DNA from: Fragilaria crotonensis
Taxonomy: Eukaryota > Bacillariophyta > Fragilariophyceae > Fragilariales > Fragilariaceae
NCBI GenBank assembly: GCA_022925895.1
Contig: JAKSYS010000464.1
Location: 1 to 50,515, forward strand
Reading direction: 5' to 3'
DNA length: 50,515 bases
A program made the position numbers and the translations under genes. Position 1 is the stretch's first letter. Every line of letters starts with the position of its first letter. This document shows positions 413 to 50,410 of the stretch, piece by piece. The notes below the pieces were generated by a model. That model was not told where the DNA came from, made no database searches, and worked only from the letters and a program-made list of their open reading frames with translations.

Positions 413-3330
413 ATGTCTTCCTTGTCCTACAGGCATCACCGCCGTCTCTATTTTTATGAATGTAACATGTCGAAACGACGCCGGAAGCAACAAGGATGTG
501 CTCCAATTTATTGCGAGAATCCATTTTGTCCTCAGGATGGAAAGGCGTACACCAGCATGTCGGCATTTACTCAACATATTGGCAGATCAGCGTCATGCGA
601 ACAATATGTTCACGGTCATTTGAATTTACGTTCCATTACTCGCGAAAATGCCACCTCTCTACTGTTGTAACAAACACCAAAAAGCCCTCTGTGTTACGCC
701 GCGACATGGTAAACAACATACCGCCTCTTCCTGACGATGAAGAGGATTTGGGATTTGCAGTTACCGATGCACACAGTTTGCCATGTGATGACGAAGACGC
801 CATTTTCGACAACGAAAGCAATTGTCTTGACGTGCCTACCTTTGCTTTCCGGCCACCGCAAGAAGGTGCTGTTTTGTCCAGTAGTGGATTTATGTACACT
901 ACTCAACAAAAGTGGACCGTCGCATTGTTGAAATTACTGGACGACATAAATGCTCCTGATTACGCATTTCGTTTGATTATTGAATGGGCTTTATCCGCTA
1001 AAGATGATGGATACAGTTTTCAACCACCTGGCGGTGTTACACGGAATGCAAATGTTGATATTTTATTCAAGTCTGTACCTAATGCTCCCCTTCTTCGCCC
1101 CTCTATTCAACCCGTGCGGCGTGTTGACGGTTCCTCAAGCAACGTGATTGTTTTTGATTTTGTTCCTCAACTTCGCCTGCTCCAAAACCCCAGTGTCATG
1201 AAGCCAGAAAATCTTGCTATCAACTTTAATGCTCCCCTTTTGCGTTATGAAAGTCCTGGCAATGTTCTTGGTGAAGCATTGTCTGGTAGTGTATACCGTA
1301 CTGCTTATCAGCGCTTCATCAGCGACCCTTCTCGTCAGCTGTTTGTTCCTATTATTCAATGGATTGATCGCACTTCCGTGACAGGAAATGATAGGTTTTC
1401 TTTAAAACCTTACATGTTTACCCGCAATTTTACCGAATCATTTCGTCGAACATTCAAAGCTTGGGGTATCATGGATTTCTTCCAAAATCAAAAAAATCCT
1501 CAGCGCAAAACCAAACCAAAAACAAGGTGTCAACATTGGCAACTATCACGCCGAGCTTCGTGTTGTCTTAAATACATTCCGTTCTGCCAACAATCGTCTT
1601 CGAAATATAACTCTTCCTATTGGACCTAATGGAAGCATTACGGTGGATATTGTTACGTGCATTTTGTTTGTCATCCAAGACATGCAAGAAGGCGATATGT
1701 TGTGTGGTCGATATGGACCACACACCCTTTAATTAAAGGCATTGTCGCTCCTGTGATGTCAGTTACGACGACCTTGACAATCCAGAGGTTAATTGTACCT
1801 TTCTGCTTTCTCGCAATATGGATTTTATCGCTCAAAGTGAAGACAAAGAACTCCGGTCACGTTGGTCTCAGCACAAGTTGGATAATGCATTCAATCACAT
1901 GCCACTGGCTGATCCTGTACGTGGAATATTCGGCGCAACTCCTGTGGAAACCATGCACGCGTATCGTAAGGGTATGATTGAAATGGTAACCTTTCTTGTT
2001 TTGGATAATGTTCCGGCAAGCAAAAAGGCATTGCTTGACGATCTTGCATTAAAGTTTCACAAATCTCACCGTCAAACTTGGCGAGGTGAATACCCTGCTA
2101 CTGACTTCACAAATGGCATTACAAATCTGACCAAGATTAGTGCTTCAGAGCGACTCGGTTTGGTTTTTGTTTGTAATCTTGGCGCAATACCATGAAGGGT
2201 GGCAAATTTTGGAATCTGCGCTGAAACAACGTACAGATACATCTCTGACTGATGTAGTGGAATTACTCGAGGCCATGCTATGTTTTGATGCATGGCTCAA
2301 CCGAGACACGTTTTGGAATTTAGAAGACGCTGAAACTGCCAAAGAATCAGCACAATTTTCTATCAAAGTACTGATGGAAATGTGCAGCAACTACCTACCC
2401 ACAACAAAATCCAACCGCTGGAATTTTCCGAAATTCCACGAGTTACTGCATATTGTTGATGATATGTCAAGGTTTGGTGCACCCACCAATTATGTGCACA
2501 ACGTCCTGAATCTCTTTTGATTGCCGCCGCAAAGCAACCAGGAAGGCGTGCCCAGAAACGTCATCAGGAATTGATTACGAGCTCAAGCTGCACAACGTTT
2601 GGCTGCTTCAGGTATTATTGAAACAGTTTATGAGAGAATCTTTGACACTCCGTCGCTGTTGTCACACGAAAACATCACCCCACCAAGCACAAATTCAAAC
2701 ACTACGCAAGACAGAAAACTGCGCAAAGCCCAATTTCGAGCATTTCACAAAGTACGGACCTAGCTACCACTTGCACGATCCTCGAGCCATCGACCACTGA
2801 GCCTGGTAATGTTACTTATCGACAGTGCTGGTCAAGTACCACTAAAGTTGAGCACTTGACTTTGCCAACCCCTTGCTGATTTTCTTATGCGAAAAGTTTG
2901 GTCCCGAGTTCATATTTGCACACAGTACAAACGTGATGCATTCACCTTTCGATGTCATCCTGCTTTCCAATCTGGAAATGCAATCTATGATTGGATGTTA
3001 GTCAAATTTGAAACCAAAGCAGATGGCAATCAAGAAGCTGGTGTTGATTACTTCCCATGCAAACTTGTGGCTGTCGTATTCAATAAGGATGCTGTTGTTC
3101 CAAACGATGACGACAAATACCGACTTGTTGTTCAATGCACACTCAACCGAACTGGTGTTAAGTCTGTGTTGCTGACGGAATGGTGGTGGTCGCCTGAATA
3201 TGTGATTATATCACCAGCCGCCATTTTCAATCCGTGTTTTGTTATCACCATAAAGGAAGACCAATCTATTGTGATGGAGACATTAGCATACGAGAAGTGG
3301 CCAGGAGAATTTACAAACACTAAGTATTAG
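413..3330 (+). pseudogene. Plavaka/KDZ-like transposase, multiply frameshifted
   Basis: Fragments in several frames read in order as one transposase. The start (413-670) has a Cys/His-rich zinc-finger-like segment (ENPFCPQDGKAYTSMSAFTQH). Then come 700-1500, 1520-1730 (IVTCILFVIQDMQEGDMLCGRYGPH), 1818-2160 (DPVRGIFGATPVETMH, then SHRQTWRGEYPATDF), 2160-2520, 2530-2800 and a C-terminal part at 2887-3330 (LTEWWWSPEYVI, EKWPGEF). I recognise these blocks as the Plavaka-like transposase family abundant in diatoms. At least five frame changes, at roughly 650-700, 1500-1530, 1735-1820, 2160 and 2500-2530, break it. The final ~440 bp is open. The assignment rests on recalled family motifs; the catalytic residues were not mapped. 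Confidence 0.72.
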
Positions 3331-3361
3331 GCACTTAAACAGAAACCGCAGCTTTTTATGT

Positions 3362-4296
3362 TCACTTAGCCCTCTTGGACGGGAGCGTCATAGCCTGAAT
3401 TCGATTCTTCTTTCCTCCCACGTATCGGAACATAAATCCTCTTCGAAAATCAATGAAAGTGCTCTTTTCTGTTTCCGTACAAGTGCAATAGTCCAGAGCT
3501 TTTTGACATAATGGAATTGCAACAATTTCGTTAGCATCGTAAATGAATCCTCCATGAATGGTAACCGCATGATTACTGTTGCCATCAGAAGCAAGAAGCA
3601 CACCCACGAATACCACAGTCTCGTTCAATTCATTTTCCAATCGAAATGTCGTGGCTTCCAGGCTGGCTGTAACCACTTTGGAAGTACCTCCGAGGCGTAG
3701 GTCATAACCTTCTTCAATGCATTAACTGTTCCATGGGCCAACTTTTCTTTTCCATACTCAGCGATCTTCGTAGCTTCATTGACAAATCCCAGCTCGAATA
3801 ATGCACTAGCAAAGGAATTTGATACGCATAGATCTTCCCCCTCGTTTTGGACAAAATGCACTTTTGGAGCGCCTGTTACCGTCAAATCAGGATGTTGGTC
3901 CAGTGATGACTTCTTCCAATCTCCAACAGGTATGTCAACGAATCCTGTTCGAGTCTCTTTAAGTTCGTTCAGAAATTTTGTTGGAAGTACATTATCAAGA
4001 AAATCCAAGTCTTTCTTGACTCGTTTTCCGTCGGCGTTTACCACGCTCCAATGAGGAGGAACAGTTATATCTTTTCGTGGAACTTCTTTCTTTTTCGGTT
4101 TTTGTTTCTGTGGGGAGCGTTTGACGGGTAGGTCCTCTTTCTGTGTCTCTCTCATCTCTATGACTTTGTCATAATCAAGAATGTTTCGAGTCTGTTCTGG
4201 AACAAATTTTACTCGCGTGATTTTCTTGTTCTCCAGAAACACTTCCATATCAGCTGGAATCGGAAAATACCTCCCATCGGACTCGAGGTTTAGCAC
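3362..4296 (-). pseudogene. Second cysteine-protease-like region of the accessory gene
   Basis: Two overlapping minus-strand frames (3625-4296 and 3362-3676) join into one domain after a frameshift near 3650. The first has a conserved block LCVSNSFASALFELGF with a candidate nucleophile Cys at residue 157 of that frame. The second has NHAVTIHGGFIYDANE with a candidate His at 36 and Asp at 47. The order Cys, then His, then Asp/Asn in a HAV..GG..YDAN context is that of papain-fold peptidases, so I infer a papain-like or adenovirus-type fold. No family was assigned. A Lys/Pro-rich basic tract (KRSPQKQKPKKKE) precedes it. It lies downstream of the Ulp1-like region and could be the C-terminus of the same protein. 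Confidence 0.45.
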
Positions 4297-5624
4297 ATGG
4301 TTGATGACATCGTTAGCAAATCCTGCTTCCTTCCTGAACCACTCTTCTGTGACTGGGATATGTTTTCCACGTTATCACCCTCGTCGTCCGTGTACTGCAC
4401 ACGCGCCACGAATTTGTTTTCGGAACGCACATACTTAACGCCAGTTACTAACATAGCCTCGTCCAAAAGGTAATCATTTTCGAATTGTCTACGGAAATGT
4501 CGTCTTTCTTTCTTCATTGCCTTGAGCAGTTCTGTGTAGTACAACTTGATGATTTCCTTCTGACTTGTAGATTTCGCTTCTTCCACACTCGAGGTCATGA
4601 TCTGGCGATACCACTGCAGGTCCATTTGGTGTTGCTCATTCGAACTCCAGTTCCATTCAAGGAACCGCTTTTCAACGTACACATCCATTGCATTTGTGTC
4701 AATTGGTCTAACTTCATTGCATTTTCCCACTTTTCGTAATATGCAACAAGCAATTCCTGAGCAAACGGAGGCGACTCTTGTTCCAATAAGTTTGCTTGAC
4801 TTTTCGGTTCCATTTCGAGTACTTCTTGAATTCCGAAAAATGATTAGGATCACCACGTCCGACATCTTTCCAGTTTGCTTCCCACGTATTGAATTCCAGC
4901 ATATCATCTGTTGGTATTTCTAACCAAGGAAGATCTTCTCGTTTCAGCTTCGTTTGCTGGAACGATTCATGTGCATTTTGTTGAATGGAATTTGTCAACT
5001 CACGTCCACTCAACTTTCTCTTCTTGCTTTTTTTACGATAGCTTTTTTCTTGCTCGTGCACACTGTCTGATTCGGTAGGAAGTTTAGTTAGCTCCATTTG
5101 CCCGTCTTCGTGCATGGGATCATCTGCGTCCTTCGGAAATTGAGATAGCTCCATTTGCCTGTGTTCTTGATCGTGCACACTGGCTGTGTCGGGAGCAAAG
5201 TGAGATAGCTCGGCATCTGTTGGAAATTGATATAGCTCCATTTGCCCGTCTTCCTGCACGGGATCATCGGTGTTTGTCGGAAATTGAGAATGTTCTATTT
5301 GATCCACAACAGTTTCACCTTGTTGTGGACCGTTGTCCTTGGTTTCTGTACTTTCTTTTTCATCCGCAAGCTTCACTTCAAGGTCAATGAGGAAATCCAT
5401 TTCGGATCCATTTCCAACTTCAGGAACTTCATTTTCTCAATTCCTTTTTGGTCCACATATTCTTTGTTCGACGATTCTTCATCCTCCGAATCCGACGAAT
5501 CAGTTGATGGGTCCTCATTTGTTTCTTCACTATGTGTCCCTAGCAGTTCTAAAAGGGTTGAAGCTGCCCTGTCCTTTTCCCCTTCTTCGTGATGCTGAAA
5601 ATCATTGTGAGGCCATCTGAGCAA
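4290..5624 (-). pseudogene. Acidic, repeat-bearing linker of the accessory gene
   Basis: Three overlapping frames (5373-5624, 4714-5400, 4290-4907) continue the Ulp1-like gene. The first is an acidic Ser/Asp/Glu run. The second holds an imperfect ~30-residue repeat with core QMEL-x-x-[FL]P, seen three times between about 5050 and 5270, then a basic KKSKKRK patch that could be a nuclear localisation signal. The third is charged and helical and passes directly into the cysteine-protease-like region. No catalytic family is recognisable. The frame changes fit decay of a once continuous protein. Confidence 0.5.
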
Positions 5625-38807: not shown

Positions 38808-39274
38808 GGTGACTGTGGCTTGTTAGGTTTGAAGTTCTCGAGAATCACAACGAAACGAATCAAAAAGTTCCCAACCGAAATGCGTGAGAAAGAATGTTCT
38901 CTTAGGAGAAGATCGGACCGGGGCGATAGTTTAGAAGAGAAATCCCCGACAACTTTTCCAAAATTATGAGATAAGTTGCTGCAAAAATGAAATGAACGTG
39001 GATTGGTGTTCGCAATTTTTGAAGCGTTCGCATTTCTCACCGGTTCGCTCAGGAACATTCCAACGTAACTTGCAGTAGAAGGCATATGAGAATAGTTTGA
39101 CACCAGCTTGTTCTTGTGTTGACAAATTCTTCTGCTTATGACGATCCCTGAACCCGGAGCTGCCATTCCGAACTCGTATTCGTGCGTATGCTCATCTCTG
39201 AATGAAATGACGTATGCACAGTGCACAGTCGGAAACAAAATTTGGGAACTACCTGGTACTAGTACTACTACTAG

Positions 39275-41879
39275 TGTCTAGCCTCCCGACGGGGTTAATT
39301 AACCCCAAATGGGGTTAATTAACCCCGTATTTGCACATCACAAAAATTGTTCGCAACTACTTGCAAATCTTCCGTTCGACTAGTGTCTAAACGCCCGGGG
39401 GGGTATCTTTAATTAAAGACAAATCTGTCTTTATTTAAAGATGGCCATTTTCGTACGTTTTGCAAGACGGTCAATGTACGTTCGATACCACCATCAACAC
39501 GAAATTCGACATTGACAATGGCCGATTGCCGTCATCAATATCTTGACACATCTACACTAATGATCATAATGTAACATTTAGAACCTATTGATTGTTCACC
39601 ATGGAAGGAGGCTAGGTGGGTATGAAAGTCTAGCTTTCCAGAAAATCATCATTCTCGTGGTGCAGTCCTAAACAGGCTTTCATCGGACAGGAAGTACGAC
39701 CATGTTGACAAGAAGAACTGGCAGACTTGGCATTGTTGACCTGAAAGACAGACAAAGAAGGCAGGGCACTGTCCACTAGCAATTCCCTTCCTCCTCTTGT
39801 TTGATCCCAGGTGACAGACAGTCCCAGTGCTTGGGTCACCAAGCAACTCAAGCTTTCGCAATCGTGCTTCGCTCCTTGCTCGACAACCACTGCACGCAAA
39901 CAGCAATGATTGCAACCTCACCTCTGTCTAAACAGAAGCACAAGAATCATGTTCTCCGTCATCAGATGGGACTGCTGGCGGCAAAGTCAGCATGACATGT
40001 CTAAGCAGAGCAAAGGTAGTGAGAATTCAGGATTCGAAGTAATTTGGAGTTCAACAAATATAACGGATCATCATTGCACTCAAGAATGTCAGCGCCAGAA
40101 CACTGCAATGAATGAACATTTGAGATTGGCCTCCATAGGAACCTACCTCTCAAGAGAACTTCCATGACAAGTGTTGCTCAGCCCATTTGAATCAATGCAT
40201 CAGGGCAAAAGATGAATTCGATACGTTGATTGAGGTCTCAAATGAAATGATCTTACGTAGCCTCCGTAGGGCATGTACCAAAAATATGGTTCCACATCAC
40301 CTTCATTTGCAGTGTCTAACTCACGAAGAGTGAAACTTAGAGATAGTCGTCCGTTACATACCTTCACTTCAGAGAACGTCCAAGACATTTCTTGCGGACC
40401 GTTTGAGTCAATTGGAGTGGACGATGATGAAAGAATGCGGCAAATAAGGCCTCAAACGATGACCTTGTGCATAGAGTGCGTAGGCATGTACTGAAAACGT
40501 GTTATTTTTGACCTTAAAACTCGCCAAGAAAGGGCTCTAGTTTTCCTTTCTAAAGCATAAACCAGGAACTGTCGCTAACTAAGAAACACCCATTTGGCCC
40601 ACAGGGTTTAACTCAATGGAAACACTTTGGCCGTCTTAATTTTGTCAAAAACGAAAAATGAAGAAGTTGAGTAAGGGTCGAAATTGATCTTTAATTAAAG
40701 ATTTCACCAGTGAGCGATCTTTAATTAAAATTTCGGCGTTAGACACTAGAAACTTGGGCAGTGGCTCAAGGACCCCATGATTGTGCATGCCATCAAAGCC
40801 CAGTATCTGTATATTGTTTTCATCGAGAAACAAGAGTTTTCTGCATCGATTTTCTTGACCCTCTGATTTTTTCCTGTCATTTCTGATTTAGACTAGCAGT
40901 AGAAATAATACCCGATGCTACATAAAACTCACTATTCTGACACTCCTTTTGGCCTGCGGTTTGTTTACGCTCATGTCAAATTCAACCAAAAGTAAGGTGA
41001 CTATTGTGTGTCAAATACATTGAAGTATTGTATCTAAACATGAAACTTGTCGGGCGTTCAATATTTAAGTGACAGCAATCAATTAGAGAAAGACATCAAA
41101 CCAGAAAAAAAGCAGAAGAATCCTCGTGTAGAAAAAATACCAAAGTCTACGAAGGAGTAGGTGGTTTCGAATCCCCCGGTTTTAGATAATTCTCATCTAC
41201 ATATAGAAAAAGCTGAGGTGATCATCATCTTCAGTTTACCTTCTATGGTGATGAAGTACTCAGGACATTTGACCAGCTTGAAGAATTCACAAGTATAGGT
41301 TGATCGGAAAAAGGAACCCCAACGGACAATTTCCACACAGAAATCGTGTAGAATTTGTACCAAGCGTTGAAAAAAATTCTCTACTATGACAGATTTTGAA
41401 TTAAGAGTCAGAAGATGATTTCGAAGCGCTCGGCTTAAGGAGTGAGGATGCCAGATACTTCGAAAAGTTGTCGGTCACCGGTCACGCAGTAATGTTTTTT
41501 CAAGGTCTCAATTTGGCTTTGCAGAGTTGAATAAATTTGGACTTCAAAAAAAAACTGTTTTGAAGTTACGTAGAACCTCTACCACACTCTACGCAAGTTT
41601 GCATACCTTTAGTCAGAGACTGATCGGGGATGAAAGACGAAGTATCGCGCTTTTCTTTCACATCAGTGACTTCCACTGAAAACAAAGAAAGGAAAATGGA
41701 TCAAATGGATGCACTTAAGTATCGTCATCTTGCAACATAGATGACTGCAATTGGAGCACTTTTTCTGTGGCCGTGGTATTAAATGTACAGAAAAGCGTCT
41801 TGCACACGTACGAAAATGACAGGGTTAATTAAGGCAATTGACGGGGTTAATTAACCCCAAGGCTCCGGGAGGCTAGACA
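39275..41879 (+). mobile_element. Non-autonomous piggyBac-like element, copy 1 (carries a nested relative)
   Basis: Left end TGTCTAGCCTCCCG, right end its inverse CGGGAGGCTAGACA, flanked by CTAG at 39271-39274 and 41880-41883. Inside each end sit two TTAATTAA-centred palindromes (left: two full GGGGTTAATTAACCCC). After removing the nested element at 39384-40745, the element is ~1,239 bp. It has no coding capacity. It is homologous, in the opposite orientation, to the element at 45635-49654 over its whole length (for example 40746-41879 against 45635-46769). Confidence 0.85.
39384..40745 (+). mobile_element. Nested 1.36-kb relative with AT-palindrome ends
   Basis: Begins TGTCTAAACGCCCG and ends GGCGTTAGACA, between CTAG at 39380-39383 and 40746-40749. 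Its subterminal palindromes are CTTTAATTAAAG-type instead of GGGGTTAATTAACCCC, but placement is the same. The homologous position in the other host copy (near 46756-46759) has a single CTAG with no insertion, giving a clean empty site. No protein-coding gene recognised inside. Confidence 0.82.
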
Positions 41880-41883
41880 CTAG

Positions 41884-42131
41884 AAGGCAGGTGAGAATAG
41901 GTTGACACCAGCTTGTTCTTCCGCTCATTTTTGTGTGCCGTGATCCGTGATGCATGTGATGCCGGATGACACCACTCCTGAACCGAGCAAGAATTGTGTA
42001 GTGTGTGCGTGGGGTGAGGGGGGTTTTGTATCTTGTACTTGAAGGTTGATGAGAATAGGTTGCAAAGGCTGTCCCACATATATTAACATTTATGAGCTTC
42101 TCAATATGCATTAACATTTATTCGGCTGTTC
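41884..42131. repeat. Short dispersed repeat beside element copy 1
   Basis: 41884-41925 (AGGCAGGTGAGAATAGG...GACACCAGCTTGTTCTT) matches 39080-39115 almost base for base, and the GAGAATAGGTTG core recurs at 42050. The first two copies flank or approach the two ends of element copy 1. This may be a local duplication or an older repeat. Confidence 0.5.
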
Positions 42132-42139
42132 CCTATACC

Positions 42140-42493
42140 CAGGGGTGGGCAATTTAGGCGATCCGGCCGGCGCGCCTACCAGCGCCTAAAATAGGTTAAT
42201 TTAGGCGCTTTGTCAGACTTTGATTTAGGCGCAGGGGTTAGGGGTTAGGGGTACGGTACAGTGCCTCCGTGCCAGTACAAAATCGGGTTTAGAAATAACA
42301 ACCGTACTACAGTAGTTGAAATACAGTGAGCTACTGGTACCCACTACTGTTTATCGAAGTACTGTATACTGTATATTTATATATATATACAGCACGATGA
42401 TGAATATGTGCAATAATTTAGGCGCTTTGTCGAAGTCGAATTTAGGCGCCTATGCCCCTTTTTGAAGGCGGCCGCCTTAGAAACCCACCCCTG
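42140..42493. mobile_element. hAT-type MITE, 354 bp
   Basis: Terminal inverted repeats CAGGGGTGGG / CCCACCCCTG are hAT-like. Flanking octamers CCTATACC and CCTATCCT match at the first five positions, so the 8-bp duplication is eroded. Subterminal TTTAGGCGC motifs occur at both ends, and a short (TTAGGGG)n run lies at 42237-42250. Confidence 0.7.
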
Positions 42494-43192
42494 CCTATCC
42501 TACTATATTATAAATTAATTGTGTGCGTGTGTGCGTGCGTGCGTCCGTCTGTTACGGAGTATGACCACTCTGGGGTACTGGATCAAATGAATACTGTCTC
42601 ATACTCGGAGTATGATATATGTCATACATGCATACTGGAGTACTCCGTAAGCGATGTCGGTAAGATTTGCATATCGTTAGTTGCGTCAGTCGTCGTCTGT
42701 TACGGAGTATGACCATCTGGGGTCTGCTACTTGCGTATAGTACTGAACTGTACAAACAGTACACACAACCGTGCACAACCCATACCGTACACGTATTCCA
42801 AAAGTCCGACCAATTGGGAGGTACATATGTACACGTTGGACGTTTTGGAAAATATCAGAAGCCACAGCGCCAGCCCGATCCGGCCACATTCAAGGCGAGT
42901 GTGTTCCTCTCGACTAGCCGTATCTTGTGTGTTTTGAAAAAATATACAAGCAGTTTCAGTCTCGTATTCCATATATTCTTCATAGTTAAAAGAACGTTTC
43001 CGCATGATGCTATGATATATATCTTGAATGTACGACAAGGTACCGTAGATACAAGCTCTCTACGAGTACTAGACAGAGTGCCGGAGTGCTGAGTGCTGAG
43101 TCAGGGGGAATGAGCGTTTCTTCTTCCATTGACGGCGTTCCCATTAAATATTTCCACCTGCATTGTAAGGTTCCACTGTAGAAGTACTTGTA

Positions 43193-43670
43193 CTCCCTCT
43201 GTCCCATAAAAAACCTCCCAGAACTTTTAACGAGAACACGTTTTCACCGTTACAATCAGTCATTCTGGTGTAGAAAATGATATCAATCCTACGAGCTGAC
43301 CATGCTGGCGCGTTGTGGATAAAAAAATTGCGCGTGGCGGTTATTTCCCCGTTTCGCCAATACCCTAAGTACTTTTGATTTGCAATACGTTCTTTGCATT
43401 GTGTCTTCACGACTTGTCTTGATGTTGCACTTCCCTCGTCAACAAAAGACGAAGAGATGATTCCTGAAGTTCGGTTACTCAAATGTCCTTCTGCTTGGTG
43501 TTTCACCAAAAAACTTGAATGGGCTGATTTTTCTGACTTTGAAATTGAAAAATGAACATTCAAATCATAAAGCCGACATTCACGTTTATTTGAATGACCT
43601 GACGTTTCGGGAGAATGCCAAAATTTTTTCTAAGTAGTGATCTCTCTGGTGTGTTTTTTATGGGACAGAG
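43193..43670. mobile_element. Stowaway/Tc1-mariner-like MITE
   Basis: The left end CTCCCTCTGTCCCATAAAAA follows TA (43191-43192), and the right end TTTTTTATGGGACAGAG is its inverse, with the final GGAG lost. CTCCCTC.GTCCCATAA is the classic Stowaway terminus. The minus-strand frame covering it (43144-43563) crosses the left end and is not taken as a gene. Confidence 0.7.
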
Positions 43671-44569
43671 TTATTGATGTGTATAATTGAAATCTTGAGA
43701 CGAGTGTGGCATTATACCGTATAATACAGTATTATAGTACCAAATGGTATTATACAGCACAACCGTACAGTGATGAGTACCCTACTAGAGTACTGAACAC
43801 ACGGAGCTGTACTACATCATCGTAGAATCCCTCCACGTCAAAAACCAAACGCAGTGCCTTGTTTGCTACAACAGTGCTACAGTGTTGCTGCCACCATCAG
43901 ATACGTTGACTGTTACTCGAGACAACAAAGTGAAGGAATGATTTAACCTTAGAAACCTCCATAACCATGACACTGAATAGTAGTTTTCTTGCTGTTGACT
44001 AGTATTAGTAAGGTAGCTCATCTTGTTCTCCATCATTTACAAAGAGGCATTCATCCGCAATGGTGTCTATTCCACCAGACAAGTCAATCTTATAGTAATC
44101 GAATTCATCGCCAGCATCCTCAACATTGTTCTCCACATCATCAAAGAAAAAATCACCTTCCTCTTCGTCACCTGGCAAATCGAGCTAGCAGAACATTTGC
44201 AGTACTTAGTCTTGGACCCGCCCTCAGGCAGGTATACGGCACCAAAATGAATCCAGATCTCACTCTTACTTTTCATTATAGACAACTCGTTAGTACTCCT
44301 AATGGATTTGTGTGCCTGACGATACAAAAGGCATCAAATTGCTGCCACAAGTTTGGAGTTACTATGCCTGAAACTGCATTCCTCTGATGATTGCTCACGC
44401 ACGCAAATGGTAGCATCACCATATCACCATTAACCCTTAAGGCTAACAAGCATTCCAATTATACAAATATACCATACCAAAAAAACGAGTGTGGTATAAT
44501 ACAGTGGTATAATACCGCGGGTATAATACCCCAATTAAACAAACACATCAATAGACAGAGGGAGTACAG

Positions 44570-45020
44570 CAGAGTCCTGCACCGGGTATGAAGCCTGTGC
44601 CCATGGGTACCCAAGGCTGCCGGTAGGCAGGCTTGGACCACCCATGACCCACCCACGCTTCGCGCGGTCACGGCTGGACCACCGTTACCCACCCACGCCC
44701 GGTAGGGCGGTAACCACCCATCTACACCCACTGCCCATTTTCCTGCAAAATTCAGCCCGCCGCAGGCATTTTTCTAAAGTTGCTCTCACCGCGTACTATA
44801 CTCTACTACTCCTTACTAGCTACAGTATACTTGGAGTACAATGGTCGATTCGCGTTGGCAGGCTTGGACCACCCATTACCCACCCACGCTTTGCGAGTCA
44901 AGTTGGGACCACCCATTACCCACCCACGACTGGTTGGGCATGCCCATACCCAACCATTAACCATGGGTATGGGTGGGTAGTGGGTGGGTACTGGGTATGG
45001 GTACCCAGTGCAGGACTCTG
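44570..45020. mobile_element. hAT-type MITE with perfect 8-bp target duplication, 451 bp
   Basis: Ends CAGAGTCCTGCACCGGGTA / TACCCAGTGCAGGACTCTG. The octamer GAGTACAG lies at both 44562-44569 and 45021-45028, exactly. Inside are four copies of a GGACCACCCATTACCCACCCACG-like unit (44635, 44680, 44865, 44907 area) on either side of an unrelated centre. No coding capacity. Fresh-looking insertion. Confidence 0.85.
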
Positions 45021-45028
45021 GAGTACAG

Positions 45029-45630
45029 TACTCAATACTCTGTGTCGTGCGAATTCAGCCAGTATTTCACATTTCAAGCCGTAGATTTTTACGCCGAAAT
45101 TAGTCAAAAACGTCATCAATTCTATTCGTGTGATCACACTAGTATATATAAAACCTAATTATAGAGGGTTAGCACCGTCTAGGAACCGTGAGGTTCCCAG
45201 AGTGTACCCCGTTCCGGCGTGCGTTAGCACGCGAGAACTTAATTACTACTGCTGTGGTTGGTTACCGTACTGTGGGGAAAAAACTTTGTATGGTTGTCTG
45301 ACGTTTGCCGTCGATTGCATGGAGTTGCACGGAGGATTTGATGAGTCGTAGCCATCTGCGTCGTGTTGAGGATGACCCTGATAAGAGTTTGTTCAAGCTT
45401 CTATTGCATAGATGTCGATCGTCGAAGCGTAGTAGCTGGGGGCGTTGGTGGTAGTAGGATACTTCGACTTGTTCTGCGGTGCGAGCGGTGTTGAGATTTT
45501 TGGTCTGTGTCTCTTCGTGTAGGACTGAGTTGCGAGCAAGCCAGAGAGTGCGTGTGAAGATGTGGATGGCGGAAATGCTCGTGCGGAGTCTCTGGAGTCC
45601 TTTGGGTTGATCTGATTTCGTGTGATCACA
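45029..45630. other. Spacer with hairpins and a direct repeat of GTGTGATCACAC
   Basis: The 12-bp palindrome GTGTGATCACAC, in a 19-bp identical context, occurs at 45128-45139 and 45620-45631. After the first copy come TATATATAAA (45144-45153) and two strong hairpins, GGAACC/GGTTCC at 45182-45197 and GCGTGC/GCACGC at 45217-45232. No gene is recognised. Confidence 0.5.
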
Positions 45631-46782
45631 CTAGTGTCTAGCCTCCCGGAGCCTTGGGGTTAATTAACCCCGTCAATTGCCTTAATTAACCCCGTCATTT
45701 TCGTACGTGTGCAAGACGCTTTTCTGTACATTTAATACTACGGACCACATAAAAAAGTGCTCCAATTGCAGTCATCTATGTTACAAGATGACGATACTTA
45801 AGTGCATCCATTTGATCCATTTTCCTTTTCTTCATTTTCAGTGGAAGTCACTGATGTGAAAGAAAAGCGCGATACTGATTTTTGTCCCAATCAGTCTCTG
45901 ACTAAAGGTGTGCAAAAGTGCGTAGAGTGTGGTAGATGTTCTACGTACCTTCAAAACAGTTTTTTTTGAAGTCCAAATTCATTCAACTCTGCACAGACAA
46001 ATTGAGACGTTGACAAAACATTACTGGTGACCGATGACCGACAACGTTTCGAAGTATCTGGCATCCTCACTCCTTAAGCCGAGCGCTGCAAAATCATATT
46101 CTGACACTTAATTCAAAATCTGTCATAGTAGAGAATTTTTTCCAACGCTTGGTATAAATTCTACACGATTTCTGTGTGAAATTGTCCGTTGGGGTTCCTT
46201 TTTCCGATCAACCTATACTTGTGAATTCTTCAAACTGGTGAAATATCCTGCGTACTTCATCACCATTGAAGGTATACTGAAGATGATGATCACATCAGTT
46301 TTCTATCATGAGATGAGAATGGTCTAAAACCGAGGATCCGAAACCACCTCATCCTCCGTAGACTTTGGTATACATTCTACACGATTCTTCTACGTTTTTT
46401 CTGGTTTGATGTCTTTCTCTAATTGATTGCTGTCGCTTAAATATTGAGCGGCAGACAAGTTTCATGTTTAGAAACAATACTTCAACGTATTTGACACACA
46501 ATAGTCACCTGACTTTTGGTTGAATTTGAGATGATGAGCGTAATCAGCGGCAGGCCAAAGGAGTGTCGAAGTGAGTTTTACGTAGCATCGGGTATTATTT
46601 CTACTGCTTTTCTAAATCAGAAATGACAGGAAAAAATCAGAGGGTCAAGAAAATTGATGCAGAAAAACTATTGTTTCTCGATGAAAAACAATATGCAGAT
46701 ACTGGGCTTTGACGGCATGCACATTCATGGGGTCCTTGAGCCACTGCCCAAGTTTCTAGTCCAACGGAAGATTTGCAACTAG

Positions 46783-49568
46783 TGTCTAGCCACCCGGGGC
46801 CATGGGGTTAATTAACCCCGTCATTTGCCTTAATTAACCCCATCAAATTTTTGCGACTCCGTGTACAAAAAATACTATCATCTACTCAAAAATGGTGTTG
46901 ACCATGACGGTCAATACGGATGTGTTCACACTAATGAAAGCACATTGAACTATTGAGATTAGGCTTACAACTCATCAAGGTGTGCATGGTTTCGAGCCAG
47001 GTGGTTCAAAAAGCACCGTTGGCCATTTTTTGTTGCACAAAGATACACAATTTTTCCATCATCACCGCAATCTGAGCACTGCCATGTCGTCTTCTTCTGA
47101 CACTCCTTGCACCTCCCTTGATATCTGAATGTGGTTTTTTCGCCTTTGCTGTTCTTCAGGCGCTTCACAGGTGTTAAATGAGTGAGCACACCAGCCCTTG
47201 GACCTCCACTTTCAAGTGCTCGGATACAGGCATCTTGAAACGACCTTCCGGAAGTAGGCGATGACCGAGGTCGCGTTACTCGACCTCTATTGCCATATGA
47301 ATTGTCAATGAGCTCTTCCGAAAGAACAGAATAGAATTCCTTTTGATTGTATTCAACGGTTGGTGCATTCTTAAAGGCAGAAAAGACGAGCCAGGTATCA
47401 ACAATGATCATCGAAAAAATTGATAAATTCACTCGTGTAGACCAATCCTTTGTCTCAATTTTCTTTTCAATCCGAAGGTCATCCTGTCGCAGTCTGTTGT
47501 GTTTGTCGATAGCTGCACATGTAGAGTAGTAAAGCTCTGCAATCTTTGGTTGCTTTATGGAGAACATCACCTGCTCTGGAGCTGCGTTCGGAGTTTGATC
47601 CACCTGTCTCCAACGACAGCGAACGTAGGGTGTTCCATCTTCAAGGGAACCAGCACTTGAAATAAAGTACCGACGCTCACGATCCATCCAGACGAATGCA
47701 CCCAGTTCTGGTGTGAGCTCCGCATCGATGGCTGGCACTGCTCTCTTCAATGCCATGAAGTCTCCTCGGTTTGCCAGCTCCACGCTTGAAAGGAATGCTT
47801 TCGGAAAACCTCGAGTTGCTGTCTTCACAACTCCAATGAAACGAGGCCATTCCTGAATAATTCTTCTGCTGCTCCCACTGAAGCAAAGTACGAATCGGCA
47901 CAAACAATCCTGTTTGAACCAAACCAAGGTGCAACAACTTGTTTCAAAACGTTCGTACCATGTAGCAAGCTTGTCTCGTTTGCTCCGAACACTTCCTCTT
48001 CCACGCCAGGAAGGTCAACACCCTTCACAAGCTTAAGGCGAAGCATCACGCCACTCCTTCCACACGCTGCATTCTGTATTTCACAGCCATTCTCAGGCTT
48101 ACGATCAATTGCAACATACTGAGGGAGGCCATGGTTGATCCAGTGCCCTCCCTGACCGTACCAACGGCTCATAGATTCGTCGACACAGATTAGATCGGAA
48201 GGGTTGAAGTAATTTGCACGATGGTCGTTGAAGTTGTTGACGAAGTCGTCAACCAGCATCCATCGATATTGCTCTGAGGATACCCCCTCGTCAGGGACGT
48301 CAGGCTGGTGACTCCACCGAAGGCATCGAAAAAGGTCTTCAAACCTGTGTTTCGACATGCCTGTCAAGCCAAATTGTGGCGCAGGTCGATACTTTGACCA
48401 TGCCGTCGTTTGCCACAAGGAGGTCCTGGTGGTGAACTCAAACTTCGTGGTGAGGATGAAAATGCCAAACAATTTTAACAACTCACTCTCTGTTGTCTCC
48501 CTTAACTCCAGCTTGCTCAATTGACGGTTCGTCCATCCAACCATATCAAGAAGTTGCTTTGGAGGGAACATCAAGAGAAAAAAATCCAACGGCGACATAT
48601 CCTGCGTTCCTGCCCTGTTTTGACCAGGAACAAATACTTCACCAACCATGTTCCTAATACTCCAAACACGCAGTGGTACATTGCCATTCAATGGCGGGTC
48701 ATTGATTGCCGCCCTTACCCATTCAATTCCATTAACAGTTGCAATGGTTTGACGTGCAGAATTATTTTCCTCGTTCCCTGCTTCCTCATCCTCTTGAGGG
48801 AATTCTTCAGTATCATCAGGAGAAGTAGCCGGTGCAACTATTTCACCCACATTGTTCTCGGCAATGTTCACGGGCATTGGGTTGGGATCGTTCGTTGCAG
48901 GGGATGTGGAGGTTGGATTTGTTGCAGCAACTGAAACGGAGTTTTGATTCACGCTTTCAGTCACGAGTCCATTGCCATCGTTGGGAATGCTTGGAACGTG
49001 ACCGGCCTTCACTGACCTTGAATTCAGTGTGGTTGTCTTTATTGTATTCCCACCAAGGAAATAGTTTGCTGTGATCAAAGTCACGGTACGCTTCTTGGTG
49101 GATGATGGGGTTGTGTCAACGCGACAGACCATTCCGTTGAGAAGCTTGGTTTTTCGCGTTGCTTCCGTATCTTCGATGGCACTCGATCAGGGAAGTCACA
49201 TGGATAGCTTTTGCGTGCACCCTTGCACCAAACTGGAAACGAGGATCCGTTGCGCTCATTTTGAGATCAATCGATGAAGATGGAGATGAGCATTGACGGC
49301 ATGAATATCATGGTCCGGAGAATTCCCATAACCCAAAAAATTCACGAAAAAAAATTACAGCTCCAGAATTTCTTTAATAACTCAATTACAAACAACATCC
49401 ATCAATTGCCTATTTAAACCATGCAACCTTTTACTGTTCCAAGGAGATTGGCCAAGTTTGGAGTCCAACGGACCTTCTCCAAGATAAGGGGAAGCATATC
49501 CGAGATTGGCAAATACGGGGTTAATTAACCCCAAATGGGGTTAATTAACCCCGTCGGGTGGCTAGACA
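46783..49568 (-). mobile_element. piggyBac-type element, 2.8 kb, nearly autonomous
   Basis: Left end TGTCTAGCCACCCG and right end CGGGTGGCTAGACA, bounded by CTAG at 46779-46782 and 49569-49572. Each end has a pair of TTAATTAA palindromes; one of the left pair is a half-palindrome (GCCTTAATTAACCCC). It contains one transposase gene on the minus strand. The empty-site equivalent in copy 1 reads GTAG/CTAC where this copy has CTAG, a small mismatch. Confidence 0.85.
46965..49259 (-). pseudogene. piggyBac-type (DDE_Tnp_1_7) transposase, two frame changes
   Basis: Three collinear frames. A likely N-terminus starts at ATG 49259 (MSATDPRFQFGARVHAKA) and changes frame near 49190. The main frame follows (from 49132; 435 residues). 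A one-base loss at ~47845, between FRNGL and RFIGVVK, leads to the C-terminal frame (46965-47860). The catalytic Asp residues of the piggyBac RNase-H fold can be read: D318 in ICVDESMSRWYG, D412 in RIVCADSYFASV, and a third in FSMIIVDTWLVF of the last frame. The C-terminus has a Cys/His-rich finger (CKECQKKTTWQCSDCG...CFLNHLARNH), as expected for piggyBac. The few lesions suggest recent activity. Confidence 0.82.
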
Positions 49569-49658
49569 CTAGTAGCGAACAATTTTTGTGATGTGCAAAT
49601 ACGGGGTTAATTAACCCCATTTGGGGTTAATTAACCCCGTCGGGAGGCTAGACACTAG

Positions 49659-50406
49659 TGTCTAAAGGCCCGACGGGGTTAATTAACCCCATTTGGGGTT
49701 AATTAACCCCGTATTTGCGATTCTCCGAAATGCTTCCCCCTAATCTTGTCCGATGTCCGTCGGACTCCAGACTTGGCCTATCTCCTTCGAACACTGACAG
49801 GTTGCATGGCCTACGTAGGCAATAGCTCAATGTTGTTTGTTATTCAGTTATTAAACAAAATCTGGAGCTAAAAAAATATGCGTGTAATTTCGTCGTTCAT
49901 TTTTGACCATGACATCACATCGTCCACAGCTCACGATGTTCAAATCCAATTTAGCTCATAAGTGGCGGACATGATTCTCCGAAAGGCTGTCGTACATCAA
50001 TCACTCAGCATGTTTGTCTCAAAGTCTCAACACGACATTGTAGAATTGAATGAAAATGGACTTACAAAAATAAAAAGCTGTTTTGATCTTACGTAGAACA
50101 TGTACCAAGCGCTACGCAAGATTGCATGCCCGTAGTCAGAGACTGATTGGGGATGAAAAAATGAAATATCGAGCTTTTTTTCACATCCCTGATTTCCACA
50201 AAAGTTAAACAAAGAGGAAAATGGATCAAATGAATGCAGATAAGTGTCATTATCTTATGACATTGATGAGTGCAAACAGAGTATTTTTTCCAGTGGTCCG
50301 TAGTATAAAATGTACAGAAAAGCGTCTTGCACACGTACGAAAATGACGGGGTTAATTAAGGCAAGTGACGGGGTTAATTAAGGCAAGTGGTCCGGGCCTT
50401 TAGACA
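49659..50406 (+). mobile_element. Chimeric 748-bp member of the same family
   Basis: Starts TGTCTAAAGGCCCG and ends CGGGCCTTTAGACA, between CTAG at 49655-49658 (shared with copy 2) and 50407-50410. The left ~210 bp is the inverse of the right end of the piggyBac element (49358-49568). The right ~190 bp matches the right end of copy 1 (41690-41870). No coding capacity. It is an internal-deletion or recombinant derivative. Confidence 0.8.
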
Positions 50407-50410
50407 CTAG

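Follow-up and report, generated by a model that had tools for sequence, protein, structure and literature searches.

The targets of piggyBac from Trichoplusia ni and of piggyBat from Myotis lucifugus are both TTAA. piggyBac serves as a main gene-transfer tool, and TTAA is regarded as its fixed target; the structural report explains TTAA by specific contacts (PMC7351741). According to that account the tetramer is unpaired, in hairpin and target alike, and is held by the insertion domain and by an omega loop for which R275, Y283 and K290 are named. Y439 and Y283 make backbone contacts, N440 makes a base-specific contact with the central A, the central T sits in a pocket of V414, L416 and Y439, the outer A stacks on Y283, and the outer T (T0) bonds with the outer A (A3) (PMC7351741). 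The piggyBac termini carry a CC[C/T]T motif (PMC2872659). Among relatives, Pokey, a member of the piggyBac superfamily in Daphnia, is reported to duplicate TTAA in 88% of cases and otherwise TTAT, ATAA or CTAA (PMC3849761), and PiggyMac, a domesticated piggyBac of Paramecium, is described as leaving 5' overhangs of 4 bases with a conserved TA in the middle (PMC3408717). An element of Phaeodactylum tricornutum has been described as "weakly related to piggyBac", and Thalassiosira pseudonana is reported to have a homologue (PMC2806351). Here we describe five elements, E1 to E5, in a stretch of 50,515 nucleotides of the Fragilaria crotonensis contig JAKSYS010000464.1 (the window) which, with their relatives elsewhere in the genome, are very probably best explained as a whole as piggyBac-type cut-and-paste transposons that select CTAG and duplicate 4 base pairs (bp). 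The evidence, all of it read from sequence, lies in the termini, the preference for CTAG, the 4-bp duplication, the empty copies with a single CTAG, the type of transposase and the residues replaced in it.

Each of the five elements in the window runs from TGTCTA to TAGACA between two copies of CTAG, at the coordinates that a sequence-only reading of the window had given for them. E1 (39275–41879; TGTCTAGCC..GGCTAGACA) is non-autonomous and lies between target-site copies at 39271–39274 and 41880–41883. Nested within it is E2 (39384–40745), a non-autonomous member of the TGTCTAAACGCCCG family with known empty copies, flanked by CTAG at 39380–39383 and 40746–40749; after subtraction of E2 and one CTAG, E1 is 1239 bp long, and relatives of 1225–1251 bp occur elsewhere in the genome, for example on C4, C42 and C230. 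E3 (45635–49654; left CTAG at 45631–45634) is a second copy of this non-autonomous family in the opposite orientation to E1 and hosts the transposase-bearing E4 (46783–49568, minus strand; TGTCTAGCCACCCG..CGGGTGGCTAGACA), which is nested between CTAG copies at 46779–46782 and 49569–49572. The abutting E3 and E5 have a single CTAG in common (49655–49658). E5 itself (49659–50406; TGTCTAAAGGCCCG..CGGGCCTTTAGACA), a non-autonomous element of 748 bp with its right target-site copy at 50407–50410, has a copy of equal length on C218. The sequence CTAGTGTCTA has 10 exact matches in the window and 11 at up to one mismatch; shuffled sequence has a mean of 1.77, and not one of 100 shuffles attains 11.

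A search of the full genome with the termini, as the sequence-only reading had advised, covered 62.1 megabases; the target evidence comes from this one genome, plus one end on a contig of the IMG/VR database. The terminus pattern used, TGTCTARNNNCCCG, excludes the flank. It gave 145 matches compared with 23 for its reversed control, and CTAG stands directly before 118 of the 145 (control 0). No terminus match in this genome-wide search is preceded by TTAA (0 of 145). Among the distinct terminus matches in the loci first read, CTAG was found at 49 of 61, and among further single ends at 6 of 7, where C501 has TAGT, readable as CTAG plus one base. Three of the 61 that lack CTAG (L023, L026 and L032) were unlike element ends and were excluded from the element table. 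These counts bear on whether the elements could be ordinary TTAA piggyBacs, whose target choice is known to be somewhat loose; Pokey, with about 12% TTAT, ATAA and CTAA duplications (PMC3849761), gives a precedent. We rejected that explanation, to which we attach next to no probability, on the contrast of 0 TTAA with 118 CTAG among the 145 termini; TTAA is moreover the commoner tetramer over positions 1–39,200 of the window (87 times, CTAG 53 times).

For 46 elements, drawn from 100 of the 145 terminus matches together with the window elements and two others (C3 and C12), both flanks could be compared. Identical 4-mers stand on the two sides in 41 of the 46, with CTAG/CTAG in 38 and one element each with TTAG/TTAG (C38), CTAA/CTAA (C415) and CTTG/CTTG (C443). 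C3 and C12 were found solely through CTAG, and without them the flanks are identical in 39 of 44; one end of C93, C109, C111 and E2 was also located via CTAG, and when these too are left out the figure is 35 of 40, of which 32 are CTAG. C339 and C363 have flanks alike and are probably one insertion that was copied. As CTAG is palindromic and nearly invariant, a duplication of CTAG and a duplication of TA are indistinguishable from it alone. The duplicated unit could then be TA only, the G and C being part of the ends (GTGTCTA..TAGACAC) of elements favouring C-TA-G targets; an invariant CTAG gives the same sequence under both models, and the 38 CTAG/CTAG elements are uninformative. The three variant pairs are decisive, in that C38 has T where the TA model calls for C at the start of the right copy, C415 has A where it calls for G at the end of the left copy, and C443 is without any TA. 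Duplication of TA only is ruled out by these three elements unless all of them are parallel double mutations, and we consider it extremely unlikely. Because the TTAG, CTAA and CTTG variants are matched on both sides, the duplication is a true 4-bp duplication. The proposal made from the window, that CTAG and not TTAA is targeted and duplicated, is thereby sustained, with 5 of the 46 pairs unequal, and no other fixed tetramer replaces CTAG among these elements.

Empty sites were sought by joining the flanks of filled ones. Forty-five joined sites were prepared and 28 searched in the genome, in two sets of 14 with 40 candidates scored in each (from 303 and from 175), and misses carry little weight. 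Among the 23 CTAG-type sites searched, six junction-crossing matches were aligned (C4, C73, C111, C123, C133 and C489_29277), C505 gave a short one, and 16 had no junction-crossing copy among the candidates scored. Empty copies with a single CTAG are known for six elements. The sequence-only reading had taken the two copies of the host element in the window as each other's empty sites; this stands for the E2 site, whose equivalent in E3 has one CTAG (46756–46759), and fails for the E4 site, whose counterpart in E1 reads CTAC (39357–39360). Other copies of the host element have, at the empty E2 site, one CTAG (L041 and L042), ATAG (L039, L054 and L072) or CTCG (L008). At the E4 site, L041 (contig C42) matches the joined flanks at 56 of 56 bases with one CTAG, and other aligned copies have GTAG or GTAA. 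Copies with one CTAG that match the joined flanks at every base exist for both C111 and C4; the empty copy of C123 has one CTAG and one mismatch over 79 bases. The finding of CTAG before 118 of 145 termini would also be expected if CTAG belonged to the termini and nothing were duplicated. The single CTAG kept in the empty copies of six elements rules this out, and flank variants exist that are matched on both sides, which leaves the idea scarcely credible.

Some observations fit less well with a uniform duplication of CTAG and weigh against it. Unequal flanks were found in 5 of the 46 elements (CTAG/CCAG, TAAG/CTAG, AGAG/CTAC, GAAG/CTAC and GTAG/GCAG); three of these pairs (C45, C153 and C188) belong to one left-end subfamily, and an empty copy resolves C45 only, with one CTAG where the filled site has four additional bases before the left end. 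The repeat copies at the C133 site are mixed, having one CTAG, ATAG and in one case CTAGCTAG, the empty copy of C73 has CTAG plus AG (CTAGAG), and that of C489 is off by 7 bp; these three could have arisen by inexact excision or as indels of the usual kind. Outside this genome a single related end was seen, a left end with CTAG (L151/L152), and its right end was not found.

Several of these sites have features of their own. In the left-end subfamily (C45:22725, C153:185581 and C188:191), TGTCTAAACGCCCG is followed by TTGTATTTAATT or CTGTCTTTAATT, and a non-CTAG flank stands before TGTCTA. The CTAGCTAG of the C133 repeat copy and the CTAGAG at the C73 site (L143 and L142) are possible excision footprints, as is the CTAGTGT that precedes the left CTAG at C43:79223 and C253:32035. 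The end outside the genome is part of a transposon relative at 2859–5340 of IMGVR_UViG_3300049043_000356, a contig catalogued as viral, with 61% identity in its best segment; its left end has CTAG followed by TGTCTATCCTCCCG.

The claim that one of the window elements encodes a piggyBac-type transposase was upheld for E4 by the Pfam family PF13843 (DDE_Tnp_1_7), the catalytic triad and the predicted fold. The N-terminal and main catalytic part lies in an open reading frame (ORF) of 435 amino acids (47825–49132, minus strand; E 1.2e-27) and the C-terminal part in one of 320 amino acids in another frame (46965–47927, minus strand; E 5.4e-06). The two ORFs overlap and are in different frames, which marks this copy as damaged; elsewhere in the genome there are relatives whose long open frames reach 811 amino acids. 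PF13843 was above the cut-off for the window ORFs and for L051, L052, L048 and P0012. It is also carried by P0158, a Fragilaria crotonensis protein named xylulose kinase that is perhaps a gene-model fusion. In an alignment of 22 rows, D353 and D449 are invariant (22 of 22) and D576 is conserved in at least 90%, these being the catalytic aspartates (D268, D346 and D447 in piggyBac). In the alignment with piggyBac and piggyBat, all 19 rows keep the three aspartates and Y439; these are the 19 of 22 that passed a filter which itself required the motif round D268. With regard to the cysteine-rich domain that marks the C-terminus in the piggyBac superfamily, C711, C714, C722, C725, C735, C743 and H747 are at least 90% conserved in the 22 rows, and the Pfam scan gave no zinc-finger family for them; a search of NCBIfam gave little or nothing. 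The predicted structure (mean predicted local distance difference test score 64.1) has the piggyBac fold, with piggyBac and piggyBat ranked above Tn5 by Foldseek and VIA, and it suggests, as a lead only, a folded N-terminal domain in the CTAG-lineage transposase. By Pfam family, catalytic aspartates and predicted fold, then, the transposase is piggyBac-type.

That this gene is a passenger, and that a different, unseen transposase serves the CTAG ends, is very unlikely in our judgement. It would accord with the 28 of 46 elements that, at 748–1746 bp, are too short for a whole gene, and the link between enzyme and ends is one of sequence. Against it, PF13843-type ORFs lie inside CTAG-ended elements of several diverged groups (C108, C93 and C73; C3; C386, C442 and C363), and the 4-bp stagger is that of piggyBac. 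With a piggyBac-type transposase and a 4-bp target-site duplication (41 of 46 identical, three variants, empty copies), and with TGTCTA ends in place of the CC[C/T]T motif and no TTAA as the duplicated sequence (0 of 145, as against 118 CTAG), these elements are called a distinct CTAG-targeting lineage of piggyBac-type transposons, which is a new target specificity inside a known superfamily.

A second piggyBac-fold lineage in this genome, with termini CGGATATTGG..TAAACCG, shows 4-bp duplications of no fixed sequence in every one of the 5 elements for which both ends could be read (C162:46259–48790, C24:45645–48179, C2:52538–55072, C230:59463–61971 and C706:12803–15329); C259 and C201, without two clear ends, were left out of this count. 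The duplications of this relaxed lineage are varied and mostly A/T-rich (ATAC, ATAG, AAAA, ATTT and AAAT). Two of the five empty sites searched gave matches (C162 and C24), and the empty copies of C24 carry additional small indels, which makes the support weak. A search of Protein Data Bank sequences with the protein of this lineage gave little or nothing. In a FastTree phylogeny of the catalytic cores, rooted on piggyBac and piggyBat and with Kolobok left out, the 19 rows of CTAG relatives form one clade, with support 0.77, and the 19 rows of the relaxed lineage another, with support 0.998.

Aligned to piggyBac, all 19 CTAG relatives have R275 replaced by Y, Y283 by A, V414 by R, L416 by F and N440 by Y; R372 is K in 19 of 19, K290 is N in 18 of 19, and an insertion GG-x-WIN-x-G appears in the omega loop. 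The Y283 column might shift by two residues, and a tyrosine stands close by. On this alignment the residues predicted to surround the tetramer have been rebuilt in the CTAG relatives. Certain features tell against reading the replacements directly as the cause of the new target. N440, V414 and L416 contact the central TA in the piggyBac structures (PMC7351741), and CTAG keeps TA; as the central TA is unchanged, replacements at these positions are no straightforward explanation of the altered outer bases. The CTAG relatives retain Y439, the relaxed lineage alters the same residue positions, and the omega loop is among the worst regions of the model, where the residue matches come from a low-identity alignment. 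Because N440, V414 and L416 face the kept TA and are changed in the relaxed lineage too, the omega loop would be the candidate for the change of outer bases.

Taken together, the elements would be cut-and-paste DNA transposons, some copies bearing a transposase and shorter ones without it, mobilised by a DDD transposase of piggyBac type with CTAG as its chosen target. By analogy with the piggyBac structures, an element would be excised with hairpin-closed ends that span the flanking tetramer, and the target would be unpaired, with the omega loop and the insertion domain holding its single strands; joining across a 4-base stagger would leave one CTAG on each side. The central TA would be retained and the outer T:A pair, which forms the T0–A3 bond in piggyBac, swapped for C:G. 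A rebuilt omega loop (the GG-x-WIN-x-G insertion, Y in place of R275, N in place of K290 and no Y283) may account for the outer C:G, acting together with the changed pocket (R, F and Y in place of V414, L416 and N440). We consider it likely that TTAA is a trait of one piggyBac branch and not of the superfamily, the 4-base stagger being conserved and the choice of bases being set by a replaceable module that comprises the omega loop and the V414/L416/N440 pocket. A target rule thought fixed would then have been altered in nature, and diatoms would hold natural variants from which to work out how piggyBac reads its target. A lineage that shares the catalytic core and the stagger and differs in the tetramer would allow a direct comparative test of the contacts that set the target, for which the relaxed lineage, in one genome with the CTAG lineage, offers a second contrast. 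For annotation, searches that demand TTAA duplications would miss CTAG families.

As far as is known the specificity for CTAG is new, as had been suggested from the window: no CTAG-specific piggyBac was found in the literature covered, with most subscription journals and Repbase outside its scope. The departures from TTAA described in the sources we found are either minor, as in Pokey, or concern a domesticated nuclease with a conserved TA, as in PiggyMac. Pokey resembles the present elements in that non-TTAA duplications exist and differs in that they are a minority there, whereas here CTAG is dominant and TTAA was not found at any terminus. PiggyMac, as described, excises internal eliminated sequences and has TA alone conserved, whereas these are mobile elements for which all four bases are selected. 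The element of Phaeodactylum tricornutum and Thalassiosira pseudonana (PMC2806351) is diatom-borne, as here, and a protein from P. tricornutum (P0046) shares 46% identity with the query. piggyBat (9C0F) has R275, Y283, K290, V414, L416, Y439 and N440 as in piggyBac, unlike the CTAG lineage. Compared with Trichoplusia ni piggyBac itself (6X67/6X68), the Fragilaria elements have CTAG and TGTCTA termini where piggyBac has TTAA, and in their aligned transposases R275, K290, V414, L416 and N440 are replaced, Y283 is not kept and the omega loop carries an insertion.

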